From: Sinorhizobium sojae CCBAU 05684
GTDB taxonomy: Bacteria > Pseudomonadota > Alphaproteobacteria > Rhizobiales > Rhizobiaceae
Assembly (NCBI RefSeq): GCF_002288525.1
Contig: NZ_CP023067.1
Location: 2,862,501 to 2,926,500 of the forward strand
DNA: 64,000 nt
Direction of reading: 5' to 3'
The position numbers were made by a program, and so were the translations under genes. The notes beneath the pieces are model-generated. The model was not told the DNA's origin, did not search any database, and worked only from the letters and a program-made list of their open reading frames with translations. Of this stretch, positions 2,513 through 64,000 are shown one piece after another (within the stretch, counting starts at the first letter, position 1; every line of letters begins with the position of its first letter).

Positions 2513-5218
2513 TTGCATGCGGGTCTGCTGGGTAGTCTTGTGCCAGAAAACAACATCCTCAACCTCGGAAAGTCCCGGCTTTCGCGATTTCTGACCCCCA
2601 ACTACCTTCCGGCGGTCATCGCCACCATTGTCGTGATGGTGGCCGGGATCTTCGCCGACCATCAGAACCGGATCATTTCGGAAGCGCGCATGCGCTCGCT
2701 CGTCGCCAACGAGCTCGCGCCGATCCACTCGAACCTAGAGAACAGCATTAACGGCAATATCCAGCTCGTCCGCGGTCTGGTCGGCACCATAGCCACCGAA
2801 CCGGAGATGCAGCAGCAGCGTTTTGCCGAGCTCGCGCAAAGCATCTTCACCGAGCGCTCGCAGTTGCGCAACCTTGCGGCTGCCCCGGATCTGGTCGTGT
2901 CGATGGTCTATCCCGTCGAAGGCAACGAAAAGGCCATCGGCCTCGATTATCGCAGCAATGAAAAGCAACGTGCGAGCGCGTTGCGGGTGATGGAGACGAG
3001 AAAGCTCGTGCTCGCCGGCCCAGTCGAACTCGTGCAGGGCGGTCAGGGGTTGATCGGCCGTTTTCCGGTGATTACCGGCAAGGCAAAGCGCTTCTGGGGC
3101 CTGGTCTCGGCCGTCATCGATGTCGATCAGCTCTATCGCGACAGTGGCCTGGTTTCGCTTGATCTCGACATCGATATAGCCATTGCCGGCCGCGACGGTC
3201 TGGGGCGCCATGGTTCCGTCTTCTTCGGGGACTCCACGATCTTCCGGAATGCGCCGGTCGAAATAGACGTTGCCCTGCCGGGCGGCTCCTGGCGCATCGC
3301 GGCGATACCGAAGGGCGGATGGCCCGCGACGCCGCAAAATGCCTGGACGGTTCGCCTGCTGATCCTGCTCGGCGGGTTGATGATCGTCGTCCCGATGATC
3401 ATGACCGGCCGCTTGACGACAGAGCGTCAGGAGAACATTCGAGCGCTGAAGCGGAGCAAGGATCAGCTCCAGGAACTTTCCCACCGCTTGAAGATCGCGC
3501 TTGACGCGTCGAAGATCGGCATTTGGGAAGTGGACATCGACAGCGGCAAGCTGCTCTGGGACAGCCGGATGAAAGAGCTCTACGGCGTCCGAACGCATGT
3601 CGGCACGACAACCGCTGTCTGGGAAGAGAGATTGCATCCGGGCGATCGCGTGCGCGCCGAAGCGGAATTCGCCGATGCAGTCGCAACGGGTGGAGCCTAT
3701 AACTCCGAATTCCGCATCATTCTCCCCGGCGGCCGGATCCGCCATATCCGCGCCATCGGCTCCACCTACCTCGCCGAGAGCGGCACACGCAAGATCGTCG
3801 GCGTCAACTGGGACGTGACGGCCGACATCGAAACGCGGGCGAGGCTTTCGGAAGCCAAGCGTCTTGCGGAGGCGCACAGCGCCGAGTTGGAGGCCGCGCG
3901 CCACCGCATGGAATTCAATGCGCTTCACGACCCGCTCACCGGATTGCCCAACCGCCGCTTCCTCGACCAGATCCTGGCGAACCGCAGCAGACAATTCGAT
4001 GCCGAGGCAAGGCTTAGCATTTTTCACATCGATCTCGACCGCTTCAAGCAGATCAACGACACGCTCGGCCACGCCGCCGGCGACGAGATCCTCAGGCATG
4101 CCGCCGCGCTTCTGCGGGAGAATGCGCGCGAGGGCGACTTCGTCGCGCGCATCGGCGGGGACGAATTCGTCATCATTCGCGCGAGCGGAAGCCCTGACGA
4201 GGATGGGGCACTGGCATCCCGCATCATCGAGGCGATGAGTACACCGGTCCGCTACAAGGATCAGGAATGCCGCATCGGCGTCAGCATCGGCATTGCCGGC
4301 CAGACAGCCGCCGCTGACGAACTCTCCCAGGTTCTCGTCAACGCCGATATCGCGCTTTACGAGGCCAAGCGCCGCGGCCGCAATCGCCACGAAACCTTCA
4401 CGGGCGCGCTCAAGACCGAGGTTTTCAGGACCAAGCAGACCGCCGATGAAATCCTTCGCGCTCTTGAGCAGAACGAATTCATCGCGCATTTCCAGCCGCA
4501 ATTCTGTCCGAAGTCGCTGGAGGTAATCGGCGTGGAGGCACTGGCGCGCTGGGATCATCCGACCAAAGGGCTCATCGGCCCGCACGCCTTCTTGAAGACG
4601 GCCGAGGACATCAACGTGGTCGCGGCGATCGATCAGGCGATCCTGGAGCAGGCGCTTTTCCAGATCTGCCGGTGGGAGGCGAACGGTGTCCGCATACCGA
4701 AGGTCTCCGTCAACCTCTCCTATTCACGGCTGCGCGACGAGCGGCTGATCGAGCGGCTGGAGCAGATGCACATACCCGAAGGGCGGTTTTCGTTCGAACT
4801 GCTGGAGTCGATCTCCTTCGATGAGAACGACCTGACGGTGCTGTCGAATATCCGGCGCATAAAGGAGCTCGGCATTGACATCGAAATCGACGATTTCGGC
4901 ACTGGCTATGCTTCGATCGTCAGCCTCCTGAAGCTGACGCCACGCCGGCTGAAGATCGACCGGCAACTGGTGCTGCCGATCCGCGAATCGGCTCAGCAGC
5001 GGCGTCTGGTGGAATCGATCATCGACATCGGCACGTCGCTCGGCATCGAAGTGATCGCCGAGGGCGTGGAAACGCTGGAGCATGCCGCCATTCTCAAGGA
5101 ACTCGGCTGCCATGGCCTCCAGGGCTATGCCTTCGCACGACCCATGGGTGCCAACGATCTCGCTGCCTTCATCTTCGAGCGGCGATGGCGCGCCGCTGAG
5201 CGTAAGCTCGGGACTTGA
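2513..5218 (+). CDS. CHASE-PAS-GGDEF-EAL c-di-GMP signalling protein
   Basis: About 901 aa. Order: an N-terminal membrane segment (residues ~25-45), a periplasmic CHASE-like sensor (~60-280), a second membrane segment (~285-305), a PAS domain (~325-440, with W-E-V-D), GGDEF at about residue 548 and EAL at about 674, with DDFGTGYAS later. The GGDEF signature is intact and is preceded five residues upstream by REGD, a product-feedback I-site (RxxD). Both diguanylate cyclase and phosphodiesterase activities are therefore possible. The start is uncertain: TTG 2513 has no close ribosome site (AAGGAG lies about 30 bp upstream), and GTG 2540 is an alternative. The ligand sensed by the CHASE domain cannot be read from the sequence. 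Confidence 0.9.
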   Translation: MHAGLLGSLVPENNILNLGKSRLSRFLTPNYLPAVIATIVVMVAGIFADHQNRIISEARMRSLVANELAPIHSNLENSINGNIQLVRGLVGTIATEPEMQQQRFAELAQSIFTERSQLRNLAAAPDLVVSMVYPVEGNEKAIGLDYRSNEKQRASALRVMETRKLVLAGPVELVQGGQGLIGRFPVITGKAKRFWGLVSAVIDVDQLYRDSGLVSLDLDIDIAIAGRDGLGRHGSVFFGDSTIFRNAPVEIDVALPGGSWRIAAIPKGGWPATPQNAWTVRLLILLGGLMIVVPMIMTGRLTTERQENIRALKRSKDQLQELSHRLKIALDASKIGIWEVDIDSGKLLWDSRMKELYGVRTHVGTTTAVWEERLHPGDRVRAEAEFADAVATGGAYNSEFRIILPGGRIRHIRAIGSTYLAESGTRKIVGVNWDVTADIETRARLSEAKRLAEAHSAELEAARHRMEFNALHDPLTGLPNRRFLDQILANRSRQFDAEARLSIFHIDLDRFKQINDTLGHAAGDEILRHAAALLRENAREGDFVARIGGDEFVIIRASGSPDEDGALASRIIEAMSTPVRYKDQECRIGVSIGIAGQTAAADELSQVLVNADIALYEAKRRGRNRHETFTGALKTEVFRTKQTADEILRALEQNEFIAHFQPQFCPKSLEVIGVEALARWDHPTKGLIGPHAFLKTAEDINVVAAIDQAILEQALFQICRWEANGVRIPKVSVNLSYSRLRDERLIERLEQMHIPEGRFSFELLESISFDENDLTVLSNIRRIKELGIDIEIDDFGTGYASIVSLLKLTPRRLKIDRQLVLPIRESAQQRRLVESIIDIGTSLGIEVIAEGVETLEHAAILKELGCHGLQGYAFARPMGANDLAAFIFERRWRAAERKLGT

Positions 5219-57824: not shown

Positions 57825-58775
57825 CTAACCGCCGGGCGCCGTCATGCCGACGAGCAAGCTGATGACGCGGATGACGATGGGAACGAGCACGATGACGAGG
57901 CTGACCGGGAACAGGAAAGCTCCGAGCGGCAGCAGCATCTTGATCGGTAGGGCATTGGCCTTTTCCTCCGCCCGCACGATGCGAAGATCCCGCATCTCCT
58001 TGCTATAGACCCTGAGCGTCTGGGTGACGCTCGTGCCAAGTTCCTCCGATTGCCGGAACAGCACCGAAAGCGCGCGCGCCTCGTCGATCCGGAGCCGCGC
58101 CGCAAGATTGGCAAGCGCCTCGCGCAGTCTTCGGCCGCCGCGTACCTCGAGCATCATGATCGACAGATGCAGGCCGAAATCCTGTCTCTTGCTGACGAAT
58201 TCCCGCGCGACGCGGTTTGCCGCCGCCTCGAGGCTCATGCCCGCGTCGAGGCAGACGATCAGCATGTCCATGAAATCGGGAAAGAGGCGGCGATACTCCC
58301 GCTCCTTCGCGTCGCCTCGCCGGTCGATATAGATATTCACCAGGATGAAAGTCGCGCCGGCGGCGAACATCGCGATGAGGAGCGTCATCAGTCTGGACGT
58401 TTCCGGCACGAAGCGGTTCAGAGCCCAGACGGTTGCGACCAGTACGCCCATACAGGCGATCGCGCGGATCATCTGGAAGGTCGTGACCGCATTGGCGCTG
58501 AAATAGCCGGCGCGGATCAGTCGGTTCTGCGTCGAATTGGCGTTGGTGTCGCGCCGGGTGATCTCGAAATAGCGGCGGATCAGCCGGTTTTCCGCCTCGC
58601 CGAGCTCGTCGATCGCGGCCTCGCCGACGTGAAATTCGTCACCGTGTGCCCTGGCACGCGCCTCGGAGAGGCGGACGCCGACCTCGCGGCGACGGAAGAC
58701 AACCTCCGATGCGGCTGCGGAAAAGATCAGAACCGAGAAGAAGACGACGAGGTAAATGCCGTACTCGTTCCACAT
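57825..58775 (-). CDS. tadC: Tad pilus inner-membrane platform protein TadC
   Basis: 316 aa type II secretion F-domain protein. It has about three to four membrane spans and the GspF-like region LIVCLDAGMSLEAAANRVAREF (residues ~170-190). It pairs with TadB in the pilus assembly platform. It is the last of the pilus core genes in the visible order, 9 bp after tadB. Confidence 0.93.
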   Translation of the reverse strand: MWNEYGIYLVVFFSVLIFSAAASEVVFRRREVGVRLSEARARAHGDEFHVGEAAIDELGEAENRLIRRYFEITRRDTNANSTQNRLIRAGYFSANAVTTFQMIRAIACMGVLVATVWALNRFVPETSRLMTLLIAMFAAGATFILVNIYIDRRGDAKEREYRRLFPDFMDMLIVCLDAGMSLEAAANRVAREFVSKRQDFGLHLSIMMLEVRGGRRLREALANLAARLRIDEARALSVLFRQSEELGTSVTQTLRVYSKEMRDLRIVRAEEKANALPIKMLLPLGAFLFPVSLVIVLVPIVIRVISLLVGMTAPGG

Positions 58776-58784
58776 GGCGGCACC

Positions 58785-59732
58785 TCAATACTCAAAGTTG
58801 ACCATCTTGTAGAGAATGACATTGCCGATCGCCATCACGATCAGCAGGCTCGTGACGATGATCGAGCCGTAGCCGCTGTTCCAGACCGGGTCGAAATAAG
58901 CCGGCGACAGCGCCTTGATCATGCTGTAGAGAAGAAACGGATAGACTGACATGAAGATCGCGGTGAAGCGCCCCTCCGCCGAAATTGCCTTGACCTTCGC
59001 CTTCAGCATGAAGCGGTCCCGCAGGGTCTTGGAGAGGTTCTGCAGGATCTCGACCAGATTGCCGCCGGTGCCGGCCTGGACACTGAGCGAGATCGCCAGC
59101 AGGTTGAGATCCTCGACCCCCACCCGATCATTGAGGTTGATCAGCGCATCGTCGAGCGTCACGCCATAGGTCAGTTCGTCCGAAAGGAGGCCGAACTCGC
59201 TGCCGATCGGATCCGGCATTTCGCGCGCGACCAGCGAAATCGCCGCGGGCAGCGGATGCCCGGCCGCAAGGCTGCGCGTCGCGACGTCGAGCGCCTCGGG
59301 CAGCTTTTCCGCGAACTTGCGCATGCGGGTCGCCCGAGCCCGCCAGATAACGATGACAGGGATGAGCAGGCAGATCGCAAGAAAGACCGGAATGCGGACC
59401 AGGTTGGTCGGCACGAAGAACTGCACGACAAGCCAGACGGCAAGCGCGCCTGCGACACCATAGAGCGTGAAGCGTTTGCCGTCGAACTTGATACCGGACT
59501 GCACGTAGTATTGGCGCAGCCGCTGCATCAGCGGGAGCGAACGCCATTCGGCGCCGCGTTCCTTCAGCATATCGCGGTAGATCTCGCGGTGGTTTTCATT
59601 GCCGGCGAGCAGGCTCAGGCGATGGTTGACCGCCTTGCTGCGTTCGGAGGTCCGGAAGTAGCCGCGCAGCAGCGCTTCGGCGGAAATCAGCGCCGCGACG
59701 AAGACGGCGCCGTAAAGGAGCAGGAGCGTCAT
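58785..59732 (-). CDS. tadB: Tad pilus inner-membrane platform protein TadB
   Basis: 315 aa. The N-terminal spans are followed by the GspF domain (LPEALDVATRSLAAGHPLPAAISLVAREM, residues ~142-170). ATG 59732 overlaps the cpaF stop by 4 bp. Together with TadC it forms the inner-membrane platform driven by the CpaF ATPase. Confidence 0.94.
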   Translation of the reverse strand: MTLLLLYGAVFVAALISAEALLRGYFRTSERSKAVNHRLSLLAGNENHREIYRDMLKERGAEWRSLPLMQRLRQYYVQSGIKFDGKRFTLYGVAGALAVWLVVQFFVPTNLVRIPVFLAICLLIPVIVIWRARATRMRKFAEKLPEALDVATRSLAAGHPLPAAISLVAREMPDPIGSEFGLLSDELTYGVTLDDALINLNDRVGVEDLNLLAISLSVQAGTGGNLVEILQNLSKTLRDRFMLKAKVKAISAEGRFTAIFMSVYPFLLYSMIKALSPAYFDPVWNSGYGSIIVTSLLIVMAIGNVILYKMVNFEY

Positions 59733-61177
59733 TTCTTGCCTCCCGTCTGCAACGGCTTGCCGGGCTCGAAGATCGACTGCGGCACGACGATGCCGACTTC
59801 GGCGAATTCCTCGACGAAGCGCGGTCTCAGGCCCGAGGCGCGGAATTCGCCGACGATCCGGCCGTTCTCGTCGGTGCCGGTCTTCTTGAAGCGCATGATC
59901 TCCTGCATCTGCACGACCTCGCCCTCCATGCCGGTGATCTCGGAGACGGAAACGAGCTTGCGGCTGCCGTCGCTCAAGCGCTGCACCTGGACGATGAGCG
60001 TAATCGCCGAGGCGATCTGCGAACGGACGCTTTGCGGGGTCATCGGCATGCCGGCCATGCCCACCATCTGCTCGAGGCGGCTCACCGCATCGCGCGGGGT
60101 GTTGGCGTGGATGGTCGTCATCGAGCCTTCATGGCCGGTGTTCATCGCCTGCAGCATGTCGAAGGCCTCTTCGCCGCGCACTTCGCCGACGATGATGCGG
60201 TCCGGCCGCATGCGCAGCGCGTTTTTCAGAAGCTCGCGCTGGCGGATCTCGTTGCGGCCGTCGAGCGTTGGCGGCCGGGTCTCCATACGGCCCACATGCG
60301 GCTGCTGCAATTGCAGTTCCGCCGCGTCCTCGATAGTGATCAGCCGCTCCTTCGGCGAGATCTGCGAGGAGAGCGCGTTGAGCAGCGTCGTCTTGCCCGA
60401 GCCTGTACCGCCGGAGATGACCATCGACACCCGCCCCTTGACGGCGGCGCTCAAGAGGATGCGCATCTCCTCCGCCATGGCGCCGAATTCGACGAGGCGC
60501 TCCATGGTCAGCGGCTTGCGGGTGAACTTGCGGATCGAAACCAGCGGGCCGTCGATCGAAATCGGCCGGATCGCGACGTTGACGCGCGAGCCGTCCTTGA
60601 GGCGGGCGTCGACCATCGGCGTCGACTCGTCGACGCGGCGGCCGACCGCCGAGACGATCTTGTTGATCACCCGCAGCAGGTGGTCCTCGTCCTTGAAGCG
60701 CACGGCCGTGCTTTCGAGCACGCCCTTCCGCTCTACATAGACGTTTTTGTAGCCGTTGATGAGAATGTCGGCGACGCTCTCGTCCGCCAGCAACGGCTCA
60801 ATCGGCCCGAGGCCCAGCATCTCGTCGGTGATGTCGCGAACAAGATCGTTGATTTCCTTGGCATTCAGGGCTGAGTTGTTGCGGCGGATATAGTCCTTGA
60901 CCAGCGGCCGGATCTCCGCCGCGATCTCTTCGGTATCGAGCGAGTCGAGAATGCCGAGATTGATATGATCGAGCAGGTGACGATGGAGGTTCACCCTTTC
61001 GGAGACCATGTCAAGGCCAAGCGGCGACTGCTCTTCGCTTGTCGCCTCGGCGACTGCCGCCACCGGCGCGGCCGCAAACACCGCCGCCCCGCCTGAGGGA
61101 AATTCGACGACCGGACCGCCCTCGGCCCTCTCCTGCGGCGGCTGCTTGTAAAAGCGTCCTATGAACCCATTCGCCAT
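59729..61177 (-). CDS. cpaF: Tad pilus assembly ATPase CpaF/TadA
   Basis: 482 aa. A hydrophilic N-terminal domain (~110 residues) is followed by a PulE/VirB11-type ATPase with Walker A GGTGSGKTT at about 255-263, an Asp box (TIEDAAELQL) and Walker B-region (RMRPDRIIVGEVRGEEAFDMLQAM). It powers pilus polymerisation. ATG 61177 is the first in frame. cpaF is followed by tadB with a 4-bp overlap. Confidence 0.95.
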   Translation of the reverse strand: MANGFIGRFYKQPPQERAEGGPVVEFPSGGAAVFAAAPVAAVAEATSEEQSPLGLDMVSERVNLHRHLLDHINLGILDSLDTEEIAAEIRPLVKDYIRRNNSALNAKEINDLVRDITDEMLGLGPIEPLLADESVADILINGYKNVYVERKGVLESTAVRFKDEDHLLRVINKIVSAVGRRVDESTPMVDARLKDGSRVNVAIRPISIDGPLVSIRKFTRKPLTMERLVEFGAMAEEMRILLSAAVKGRVSMVISGGTGSGKTTLLNALSSQISPKERLITIEDAAELQLQQPHVGRMETRPPTLDGRNEIRQRELLKNALRMRPDRIIVGEVRGEEAFDMLQAMNTGHEGSMTTIHANTPRDAVSRLEQMVGMAGMPMTPQSVRSQIASAITLIVQVQRLSDGSRKLVSVSEITGMEGEVVQMQEIMRFKKTGTDENGRIVGEFRASGLRPRFVEEFAEVGIVVPQSIFEPGKPLQTGGKK

Positions 61178-61242: not shown

Positions 61243-61836
61243 CTACTTCACCACCACCGTCGCCCCCAGCTTCACCCGGTTGTAGAGATCGATCACATCG
61301 GCATTGCTCATCCGGAAACAGCCGGAGGAGGCGAATTCGCCGACGGTCGATTGTTCGTTGGTTCCGTGGATGCGGTAGAGCGTGTCCGCCCCGCCGCGGT
61401 AGAGATAGAGCCCGCGCGCGCCCATGGGATTGAACGGGCCCGCCGGTACGAGATCGGGCAGTTCCGGCGAGCGCAGTTTCATCTCCGCCGGCGGGCGCCA
61501 ATCGGGCCATTCCGCCTTGCGGCCGATCCTGACGACGCCCGTCCAGCGGAAACCGTCGCGGCCGACGCCGATGCGGTAGCGAAGCGCACTCTTGCCGGAG
61601 AGGACAAGGTCGAGAGTCCGCTCGTCGCTCTTGATCACGATCGTGCCGGCCGGGTGGGCCTGGGCGGCGTTCACCACGGTCGCCGTCGTCTGGCCGAGAT
61701 TGCGCGGCACCCGCGCGCTCGCCGCTTTGGCGATCGCGGGAAGGGTAAGCGGGATCAGCACCAGTAGGGCGCCCGCCAATCGCTGCCACGCCGTTCCCGC
61801 CTGCCGCTTGCCGATGTCCTGTCCCCCTGCCTTCAT
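61243..61836 (-). CDS. L,D-transpeptidase (YkuD/ErfK-type) within the Tad operon
   Basis: 197 aa. A signal peptide (~1-40) is followed by the YkuD domain, with HGTN (His157) and the active-site SSGCFRM (Cys173). The family forms 3-3 peptide cross-links in peptidoglycan or attaches proteins to it. It overlaps cpaE by 4 bp (ATG at 61836) and precedes cpaF, so it is part of the pilus operon. A role in letting the pilus pass through the wall is inference. Confidence 0.92.
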   Translation of the reverse strand: MKAGGQDIGKRQAGTAWQRLAGALLVLIPLTLPAIAKAASARVPRNLGQTTATVVNAAQAHPAGTIVIKSDERTLDLVLSGKSALRYRIGVGRDGFRWTGVVRIGRKAEWPDWRPPAEMKLRSPELPDLVPAGPFNPMGARGLYLYRGGADTLYRIHGTNEQSTVGEFASSGCFRMSNADVIDLYNRVKLGATVVVK

Positions 61837-62975
61837 TTCACCAATGCTCCGAGCTTGCCGACCGCGCTGCAGAAGCGCGAGCGCGCGTTGACCTCGACCG
61901 GCAGCACGCCGCGGTCGAGCGCCTCGCGCAACGTCTCCCAGTCATAGGCGACGATATGGGCGTGAATGTCCTTGAACACCTGGTCGATCTGCTTGCGGCT
62001 GACGCCGAGGCTGAAGAGCCGGCTGCGATATTTGTTGACGACGAGAAAGATCGAGGCCGGGCTGCCGCGCAGCCGCGTCAGATGCAGGAAGAGGTCCCGC
62101 GCCTGGTGCAGCGCGGGGATGGTCATCTCGGTGACGATCGTGACGCTGTTGACCGATCGCAGCACGTCGTCCTTCCATGGCGTACTGTAATACGGCATGT
62201 CGATCACCGTCTCGTCGCTTTCGAAGGCTGCGACGTCCAGCATGCGCAGCACCAGTTCCGCGCCCTTCGGCGACCAGAGGACCGATGGCTGCTTGAAGGA
62301 GAGAAGCGAAAAGCCGCTCGAATGGCGCTTGCGCACGAGATCGATGAATTCGAGGTCGACGCGCGTGGGATTCGCGATGACCGGCATCAGGTCATAGTCG
62401 TTGACGAGGTTCAGATAATAGCCGAGCGACCCGGAGGAAAAATCCATGTCGAAGAGATCGACACGCGGCGTGCCGGTTTTCGTCGGCTGCGCCAGCACAT
62501 GGGCAAGCGAGGAGGCGATCACACTCGCCCCTGCCCCGCCGACGGCCGAGACGACCGCATGCACGCGGCTGCCGGTCGCGCCCGCAGTCGGCGTATGGGT
62601 CGAGATCATGTCGATCAGCGCCCGGCGGTCGAGCGGCTTCTTCAGCCAGTCGCTGCCATTGAGGCGGATAAGCAACCGCATCCGCTCGTCCGTCAGCTCC
62701 TCGGAAACGACGACGAGCGGGATGCTGCGGTGATTGGCGCGGAAGGAGAAGAGCTCCGGCTGCTGCAGCACCTCGCCATTGTCGACATCGAGCACGATCA
62801 TGTGGAACACGGCCAGATCGAAACGACCCTTTTCTCCGAGCGCCCTCAGCGCCATGTGGCGGACGTCGTAGCGCGACAGCGATCCGAAGGTGTCGAGCAT
62901 GAAGCTCGCAGCCGCGGCATCGTCGGAAAGGACGAGGATCTTGGTGGTCGCTACGAAGTTCATATGGGCTGTCAT
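61833..62975 (-). CDS. cpaE: Tad pilus localisation protein CpaE/TadZ
   Basis: 380 aa. A receiver-like N-terminal domain (residues ~10-125) precedes a ParA/MinD-like ATPase domain (~140-380). The P-loop reads VSAVGGAGASVIASS, lacking the lysine that follows G in ParA family members, as in some TadZ proteins. It positions the pilus at a pole. The ATG at 62975 lies 27 bp after the TadE-like gene. A downstream ATG (MNFVATT) is an alternative. Confidence 0.88.
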   Translation of the reverse strand: MTAHMNFVATTKILVLSDDAAAASFMLDTFGSLSRYDVRHMALRALGEKGRFDLAVFHMIVLDVDNGEVLQQPELFSFRANHRSIPLVVVSEELTDERMRLLIRLNGSDWLKKPLDRRALIDMISTHTPTAGATGSRVHAVVSAVGGAGASVIASSLAHVLAQPTKTGTPRVDLFDMDFSSGSLGYYLNLVNDYDLMPVIANPTRVDLEFIDLVRKRHSSGFSLLSFKQPSVLWSPKGAELVLRMLDVAAFESDETVIDMPYYSTPWKDDVLRSVNSVTIVTEMTIPALHQARDLFLHLTRLRGSPASIFLVVNKYRSRLFSLGVSRKQIDQVFKDIHAHIVAYDWETLREALDRGVLPVEVNARSRFCSAVGKLGALVK

Positions 62976-63002
62976 CTCGCTTCCCCACGCATTATCAAAG
63001 GT

Positions 63003-63917
63003 TTAGCAGGTTGAGCACGTTCTCAGGTCTTCAGTCGTGATCGTCACCGGATGGGCGGGCACGGTAATGTCGTCGAGCCCCAGCAGACCGCCGAGAAGCG
63101 GAAGGTCGAAGGTGATGTTGCGAACCTCGAACCGCATGGTTAGCACCGCCCCCTCGGGGCGGCCCCAATAGCCGAGCCCGGAACGCTGGTAGGTGACGAC
63201 CAGGTTCGCCGGCTGAATGCGCCAGTTGATATCGCAGATGCCGGGCCGCGGATCGCCCGCCGTGCCGCAGACGCCGTCGCTTCCGCGCACGATCCGACTC
63301 AGTCGAGCGGCATCACAAGCCGCATAGCCGGGGCCGCAACTCACGGAGATCGACGCATCGTTCGGCGTCGCGCCCCCGTTGTTCAACGGATTCGCAGCGC
63401 CCATTGGAAATGCGGCGTCAAAAGCCGCCTGGCTCACCAGCGGATCGGATACGGCCGCCAATCGCGCGCCATATTGCAGCGCCTTAACCGTCTGGTTCCA
63501 TTGCGACATCGCGTAGCCGAATTCGATGAAGGCGGCAAAGACCAGGAGCACGATGGGAAACGTGATCAGCGCCTCGGAAAGTGCGACGCCGCTCTCGTCC
63601 TGGCGGAATCCGATCTTCCGAGCAGGCGAGGCCGATCCGCCGGACGTTGTCGCGGAATTCGCGCCACCCTCATCCCTGTGCTCGTCACAGGGATCCAGCC
63701 ACAGTGCGTCCGCACCGTGATTGACCCTCTCCGACTCGACGCCGAAACCAACGCGTGCCCAACCCCGATATTGCTTCTTCAGTGCCGCCGACGCGGCGCC
63801 GCTGGTTTCCTGTGACGAGCGCAGGAATGAGGGAGGGGTGGACGCGCTGCCGGCCAGCGGAGCGCCCTGCTCCACCAGATCGCCCAACGGCTGTTCATGT
63901 ATCCGTTCGGTTACCAT
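63003..63917 (-). CDS. TadE-like pilin/assembly protein with repeat-derived N-terminal insertion
   Basis: 304 aa. The TadE-type anchor DESGVALSEALITFPIVLLVFAAFIEFGYAMSQW is at residues 107-140, followed by a soluble domain with several Cys. TadE proteins normally have only a short stretch before this anchor. Here residues 1-106 precede it, and residues 29-84 are encoded by an inverted-repeat element (63667-63833). No ATG/GTG/TTG codon that could restart translation after the repeat was found. The frame runs in phase through the element. ATG 63917 has GAGAGG upstream and overlaps the stop of the preceding gene. Confidence 0.8.
   Translation of the reverse strand: MVTERIHEQPLGDLVEQGAPLAGSASTPPSFLRSSQETSGAASAALKKQYRGWARVGFGVESERVNHGADALWLDPCDEHRDEGGANSATTSGGSASPARKIGFRQDESGVALSEALITFPIVLLVFAAFIEFGYAMSQWNQTVKALQYGARLAAVSDPLVSQAAFDAAFPMGAANPLNNGGATPNDASISVSCGPGYAACDAARLSRIVRGSDGVCGTAGDPRPGICDINWRIQPANLVVTYQRSGLGYWGRPEGAVLTMRFEVRNITFDLPLLGGLLGLDDITVPAHPVTITTEDLRTCSTC
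63667..63833. mobile_element. Palindromic repeat element within the coding region of the TadE-like gene
   Basis: The 33-bp arms at 63667-63699 and 63801-63833 are inverted copies that agree at 29 of 33 bases (within each, CCCTG/GTCACAGG-type palindrome). The 101-bp centre is unique. The arm type matches a common rhizobial repeat, 'CTCAT..CCTGTG..CGTCACAGG'. The element lies entirely within the open reading frame on the minus strand. Confidence 0.8.
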
Positions 63918-64000
63918 CCCATATACCTCTCTTCATGCGAGACGCTGATGGTGATGGCGCCGATGCCGAGCCAGCCGAAGAGCGGCGAGGCTTCGTAAAG
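63911..64000 (-). CDS. C-terminal end of a further pilus-cluster protein (cut by window edge)
   Basis: Only the last 29 residues are visible, ending ITISVSHEERYMGW with a TAA that overlaps the ATG of the next gene (GGATGGTAA). It is on the same strand and overlaps the next gene's start, so it is very probably part of the tad operon, most likely another TadE/TadF-type pilin. Too short to be sure. Confidence 0.6.
   Translation of the reverse strand, partial: LYEASPLFGWLGIGAITISVSHEERYMGW

Follow-up and report, generated by a model that had tools for sequence, protein, structure and literature searches.

A tadE-like pseudopilin gene in the window (the whole stretch of 64,000 nucleotides analysed here) carries an insert after codon 5 that is built from two nested repeats, a 167-bp palindrome within a fragment of a MITE-like repeat. 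Inserts of about 93-106 codons occupy this position in five Sinorhizobium species, nitrogen-fixing soil bacteria, and the reading frame of the repeat stays open across at least these five species despite little constraint on its residues. Both nested repeats are apparently translated, as a leader seven-fold longer than the ancestral one. The features concerned are the following.

63003-63917, minus strand: tadE-like pseudopilin gene with repeat-derived leader extension (ORF of 304 amino acids; PF07811; 23 same-genus orthologues from the conserved start)
63926-63932, minus strand: Shine-Dalgarno sequence AGAGAGG, 8 nt 5' of the ATG, in a context common to the orthologues
63903-63917, minus strand: ancestral leader codons 1-5 (MVTER), shared with insert-free orthologues in the protein alignment
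63834-63902, minus strand: 5' fragment of the outer MITE-like repeat, codons 6-28 (homology to a segment of G007)
63667-63833, minus strand: 167-bp palindromic repeat, codons 29-84, in frame (orthologous and dispersed copies, arms, fold)
63612-63665, minus strand: putative continuation of the outer repeat 3' of the nested palindrome, codons 85-102 (local alignment to the intergenic copy L144)
63573-63590, minus strand: predicted prepilin-peptidase-type site G110-VALS-E115, with Gly at -1 and Glu at +5 (invariant G110 and E115; motif context from PMC10934763)
63462-63590, minus strand: TadE hydrophobic anchor domain (PF07811; helix 109-153 in the structural model)
61833-62975, minus strand: CpaE-like P-loop protein of the Tad cluster (PF10609 alone, E 6.4e-4, under the curated cut-off; position in the cluster)
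59729-61177, minus strand: CpaF/TadA secretion ATPase (PF00437, E 1.4e-61)
58785-59732, minus strand: TadB platform protein (PF00482; PF19360 under the cut-off)
57825-58775, minus strand: TadC platform protein (PF00482)

The ORF starts with ATG, and a profile search placed the TadE domain at residues 110-152 (E 6.6e-7; 29.8 bits against a curated cut-off of 22.9 for PF07811). Downstream of tadE are the genes for the CpaE-like protein, an L,D-transpeptidase, CpaF, TadB and TadC, and an A24 prepilin peptidase gene is located about 6 kb away (C1:2932281). The Pfam assignments of CpaF, TadB and TadC together with the A24 peptidase place the gene in a Tad/Cpa cluster.

Alignment to orthologues, which the preliminary description had proposed as a check, showed that the extension is not universal. 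The insert is found in five of the 23 same-genus orthologues: G000 (the window genome), G017, G002, G007 and G029 (Sinorhizobium kostiense DSM 13372). The other 18 run from the conserved Shine-Dalgarno sequence and ATG without it; they begin with MVxxR followed by four residues and FRQDESG, which gives a leader of 16 residues. The same short leader is found at L018, and the 16-residue form is also kept in Rhizobium and Phyllobacterium. In 39 of 40 readable loci just 13-15 residues precede the Gly; in named genomes of Sinorhizobium, Rhizobium, Phyllobacterium and Pararhizobium the number is 15 in nearly all readable loci, as compared to 109 in the window protein and 106 in S. kostiense. Since nearly all relatives have a short leader, the long one is derived, not ancestral. 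Whether or not they carry the insert, nearly all of the 23 orthologues keep the arrangement AGAGAGG-N8-ATGGT (G010 has AGAGAGA). An example of the predicted insert-encoded sequence, from S. kostiense DSM 13372, is GADAPWLDPCDEHRDEGGAACATT.

Judged by homology to copies elsewhere, the insert is composite, with the palindrome nested in a 5' fragment of the MITE-like repeat. The codons preceding the palindrome match this second repeat, which is present in G009, G017 and G029; the window segment is 73% identical to that of G007 (E 3.8e-6), and an intergenic copy in G009 matches the G007 segment at 88% identity. On the 3' side of the palindrome, local alignment to L144 gave scores of 39 for L003, 50 for L004 and 32 for L001 (null maxima 25-28) and no significant match for L002 and L005. 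By genome, G002 and G007 show the homology clearly and the window less strongly; it does not reach significance in G017 and G029. At the intergenic loci L144 and L145, which lie after ilvA and next to ilvC, respectively (gene names assigned by eye from translations), the two stretches found on either side of the palindrome in tadE lie near each other without an intervening palindrome. The outer repeat has the properties of a MITE: it is short (ca. 240-266 bp), lacks a transposase, has terminal inverted repeats near TACCAACGGCAGTAGATTCTGACC, with complete copies at L141, L142, L147 and L148, and is present in multiple copies (G009, G029, G017); its ends are TA-like by eye. It occurs outside tadE in G000, G017, G029, G009, G012 and G015; in G002 and G007 a search at E <= 1e-6 gave no copy besides that in tadE. 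The repeat-encoded part had initially been given as residues 29-84, which is correct for the 167-bp unit but too narrow for the insert, as residues ca. 6-102 are repeat-derived, with the second repeat on both flanks.

The inverted arms of the palindrome (63664-63713 and 63787-63836) are 50 nt each, 78% complementary and separated by a 73-nt centre, and the predicted RNA fold of -102.5 kcal/mol (z -5.4) is better than that of all 200 shuffled sequences. Thus the ORF, the PF07811 domain, the arms and the fold agree with the initial description of a palindromic repeat in frame inside a TadE-like gene. The copies in tadE of the other carriers are orthologous and 81-89% identical, and related dispersed copies are found in 30 of 33 same-genus genomes (E <= 1e-14). 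An Rfam scan of 62500-64000 gave no match, nor did a literature search for the arm sequence in paper texts. Among the five carriers 15 of 51 and 8 of 57 sites are variable in the arms, against 36 of 54 in the middle; the arms differ little at every codon position whereas the centre diverges, and coding constraint is therefore not the sole force acting on them. Such conservation would result either from gene conversion involving dispersed copies or from selection acting on the hairpin or the DNA. The second possibility would mean that the arms function at the RNA or DNA level, for example in translation control or in mRNA stability between the pilus genes, and that the repeat has been co-opted as well as being read through. 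Both the low variability of the arms and the z-score of the fold fit this proposal, which we nevertheless consider rather unlikely: two changes in the 5' arm of G002 look by eye like unpaired mismatches instead of compensatory changes, no need for the arms is evident in the insert-free majority of species, and similarity of the arms could just as well be maintained by conversion from dispersed copies. Somewhat more doubtful still is a broader proposal, according to which a cleavable leader would be a refuge for repeats that turn protein-coding, the peptide being discarded, while the arms carry a selected RNA or DNA function, so that repeat, leader and regulatory structure would be united in one element.

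That the repeat has become protein-coding, as was suggested at the outset, is supported by frame-keeping indels, the lack of stop codons and the conserved start. The inserts of the five species differ in length by 6, 21, 27, 30, 3, 3 and a net +30, all multiples of three. At least six to seven indels separate them, every one of them frame-keeping. Frame 1 contains no stops in the five inserts, as compared to up to four in the other forward frames, and in a neutral simulation that ran at a uniform rate on a rough tree, started from either carrier, 5-6 stops were expected over the five sequences and none occurred in 0-0.75% of the runs. The dN/dS of the insert is 0.36-0.82, indicating weak constraint on its residues; an excess of third-position change is present in the middle and post-palindrome segments and absent from the outer-repeat codons 6-28. 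Together these data suggest that the frame of the insert is held and that its residues are nearly free. No ATG, GTG or TTG is found between the end of the element and the anchor in four of the five carriers, including the window, so translation must run through the repeat in these. The original statement that no start lies downstream of the element accordingly holds for the window and three of the four other carriers but not for G017, which has TTG at codon 84, GTG at codon 87 and ATG ATG at codons 108-109. In this genome (L002) the post-element segment, codons 84-109, is unlike that of the other carriers and contains MMPFRQDESG, possibly a new start with a short leader.

The insert would remain untranslated if TadE started past the element at a codon outside the canonical set, such as ATC or CTG, with the repeat acting as an mRNA leader or attenuator. 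Weak amino-acid constraint combined with strong nucleotide conservation of the arms, the strong hairpin and the ATG ATG just 5' of FRQDESG in G017 would suit such an arrangement. It is improbable, however, given that the Shine-Dalgarno sequence and the original ATG are kept in all five carriers, that the indels respect the frame with no stops arising, and that four carriers have none of the usual start codons downstream.

If the insert is translated, its fate depends on leader processing. The whole insert lies before the G(x4)E site, in which Gly at -1 and Glu at +5 precede the hydrophobic helix and G110 and E115 are invariant in 14 of 14 aligned sequences, suggesting that the prepilin peptidase CpaA/TadV probably removes the insert peptide. 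TadV processes TadE and TadF at GXXXXEF (PMC10934763). The sequence found here, G-VALS-E-A, has no aromatic residue after Glu (Ala 116 in the window, Ala, Thr or Gly in relatives), which makes cleavage uncertain. If cleaved, the mature protein would be the same as in species lacking the insert, with the repeat peptide discarded; the tolerance of the insert, and its persistence in frame as its residues drift, would then be accounted for. In the AlphaFold2 model residues 1-107 have pLDDT values below 50, in line with an unstructured leader or with a thin alignment.

The distribution of the insert is patchy. In the recA-locus tree one clade comprises G000, G017, G015, G029 and G009, another includes G002 and G007 beside the insert-free G005, and the insert distribution costs five changes; a single-clade origin of the carriers is ruled out by this tree and by local trees. 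In G002 and G007 the outer repeat is present only inside tadE, which suggests that the allele was acquired horizontally. On the simplest reading, the insertion happened once, in the first clade; the second clade would have received the allele by transfer, and in G015 and G005 it would have been replaced. A separate insertion in each carrier clade would also account for the polyphyly of the carriers in the recA and local gene trees, but we give this little credence, as the site, orientation and nesting are identical, the flanks of both repeats are homologous on both sides and G002 and G007 have no second copy of the outer repeat. Mobile-repeat insertions usually inactivate genes, and decay of the carrier tadE toward a pseudogene is nonetheless very improbable in view of the full-length ORF in five assemblies and a core dN/dS of 0.08-0.19 among carriers, which indicates that tadE is functional. 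In G015 (L022), which is insert-free though its sister G017 carries the insert, 1.3 kb upstream of tadE lies on a very long branch, as if the cluster had been replaced by recombination.

Taken as a whole, the following course of insertion, composite leader formation, read-through, cleavage and allele transfer appears likely to us. A MITE-like repeat would have inserted after about codon 5 of tadE in an ancestor of the S. kostiense/window clade, and the 167-bp palindrome would later have become nested within it. Loss of the 3' end of the outer repeat and of ancestral leader codons ca. 6-9 would have joined what was left in frame to the FRQDESG-TadE body. Ribosomes starting at the original Shine-Dalgarno sequence and ATG would then read through both repeats, extending the leader from 16 to ca. 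107-119 residues, and the insert peptide, situated wholly before G(x4)E, would probably be cut off by CpaA/TadV, leaving mature TadE unchanged. Homologous recombination would later have moved the allele into the G002/G007 clade. The insertion, its retention in frame, its composite origin and its patchy distribution can be read from the sequences.

Elsewhere, the palindromic element was found in other settings. At L119 (G028:C11:153200-159248) five palindromic copies form a tandem-like array at ca. 2535-4459 with a spacing of ca. 471 bp, within one long open frame. Small GIY-YIG nuclease genes that adjoin the element form one clade with 99/100 support (L175, L176, L177, L183-L186, L191; G029:C4:187800-188027). 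Arms are present within ca. 320 bp on both sides of the gene at L175, L176, L177, L185, L186 and L191 and on one side only at L183 and L184; they are absent at 10 of 10 other small GIY-YIG loci and at UvrC-like loci. By analogy with RAYT, the mobilising enzyme of REPs, the element-adjoining GIY-YIG protein is a candidate mobilising nuclease. The element is spanned by 45 ORF records, mostly spurious GC-rich frames, and two of ten scanned had domains, of response-regulator type (L054) and GIY-YIG type (L025). Both were rejected as further gene-internal cases; their domains lie 3' of the element, which is therefore probably upstream of those genes. Among ca. 50 loci examined there was no other convincing gene-internal copy.

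With TadE/TadF pseudopilins the carrier proteins share the TadE domain, the N-terminal anchor, the G(x4)E site and the Tad cluster context, but their leader has ca. 107-119 residues, not 16, and Glu +5 is followed by Ala, not by an aromatic residue. The inner repeat likely belongs with the RIME and A/B/C palindromes, judging from its behaviour. The A/B/C palindromic motifs of Sinorhizobium were reportedly described by Osteras in 1995. Dispersed palindromic repeats of the RIME type occupy rhizobial intergenic regions (PMC2573895); the 167-bp unit behaves alike genus-wide, whereas its tadE copy lies in frame within a gene. Intragenic MITE ORFs fused in frame to genes have been described, for example QMITE1 of Coxiella (PMC10969869), which the outer repeat resembles in having terminal inverted repeats and no transposase. 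Unlike in such fusions, a second repeat is nested here in the MITE fragment, and a leader is added, not mature protein. The literature searched, with subscription papers mostly outside it, contained no previous description of an insertion of this kind in rhizobia.

The best-known cases of palindromic repeats captured in frame are those of Rickettsia, in which the RPE, a repeat of ca. 150 bp, lies in frame inside host genes and is apparently translated (PMC10969869). The comparison with RPE made in the preliminary description is apt for the in-frame insertion and the existence of insert-free orthologues, with translation here being the conditional part, but does not extend to the many intragenic copies: R. 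conorii has 44 insertions, nearly half of them in genomic ORFs, whereas the capture in tadE, the one convincing intragenic case found, appears to be an isolated event. The Sinorhizobium copy further differs by being nested in a second repeat and by its position in a probably cleaved leader, and the likeness is one of outcome. How host proteins tolerate such repeats is a question raised by Rickettsia; with the insert-free orthologues, the reconstructable insertion and transfer and the probable cleavage site, it can be put to direct experiment in a soil bacterium that grows in culture.
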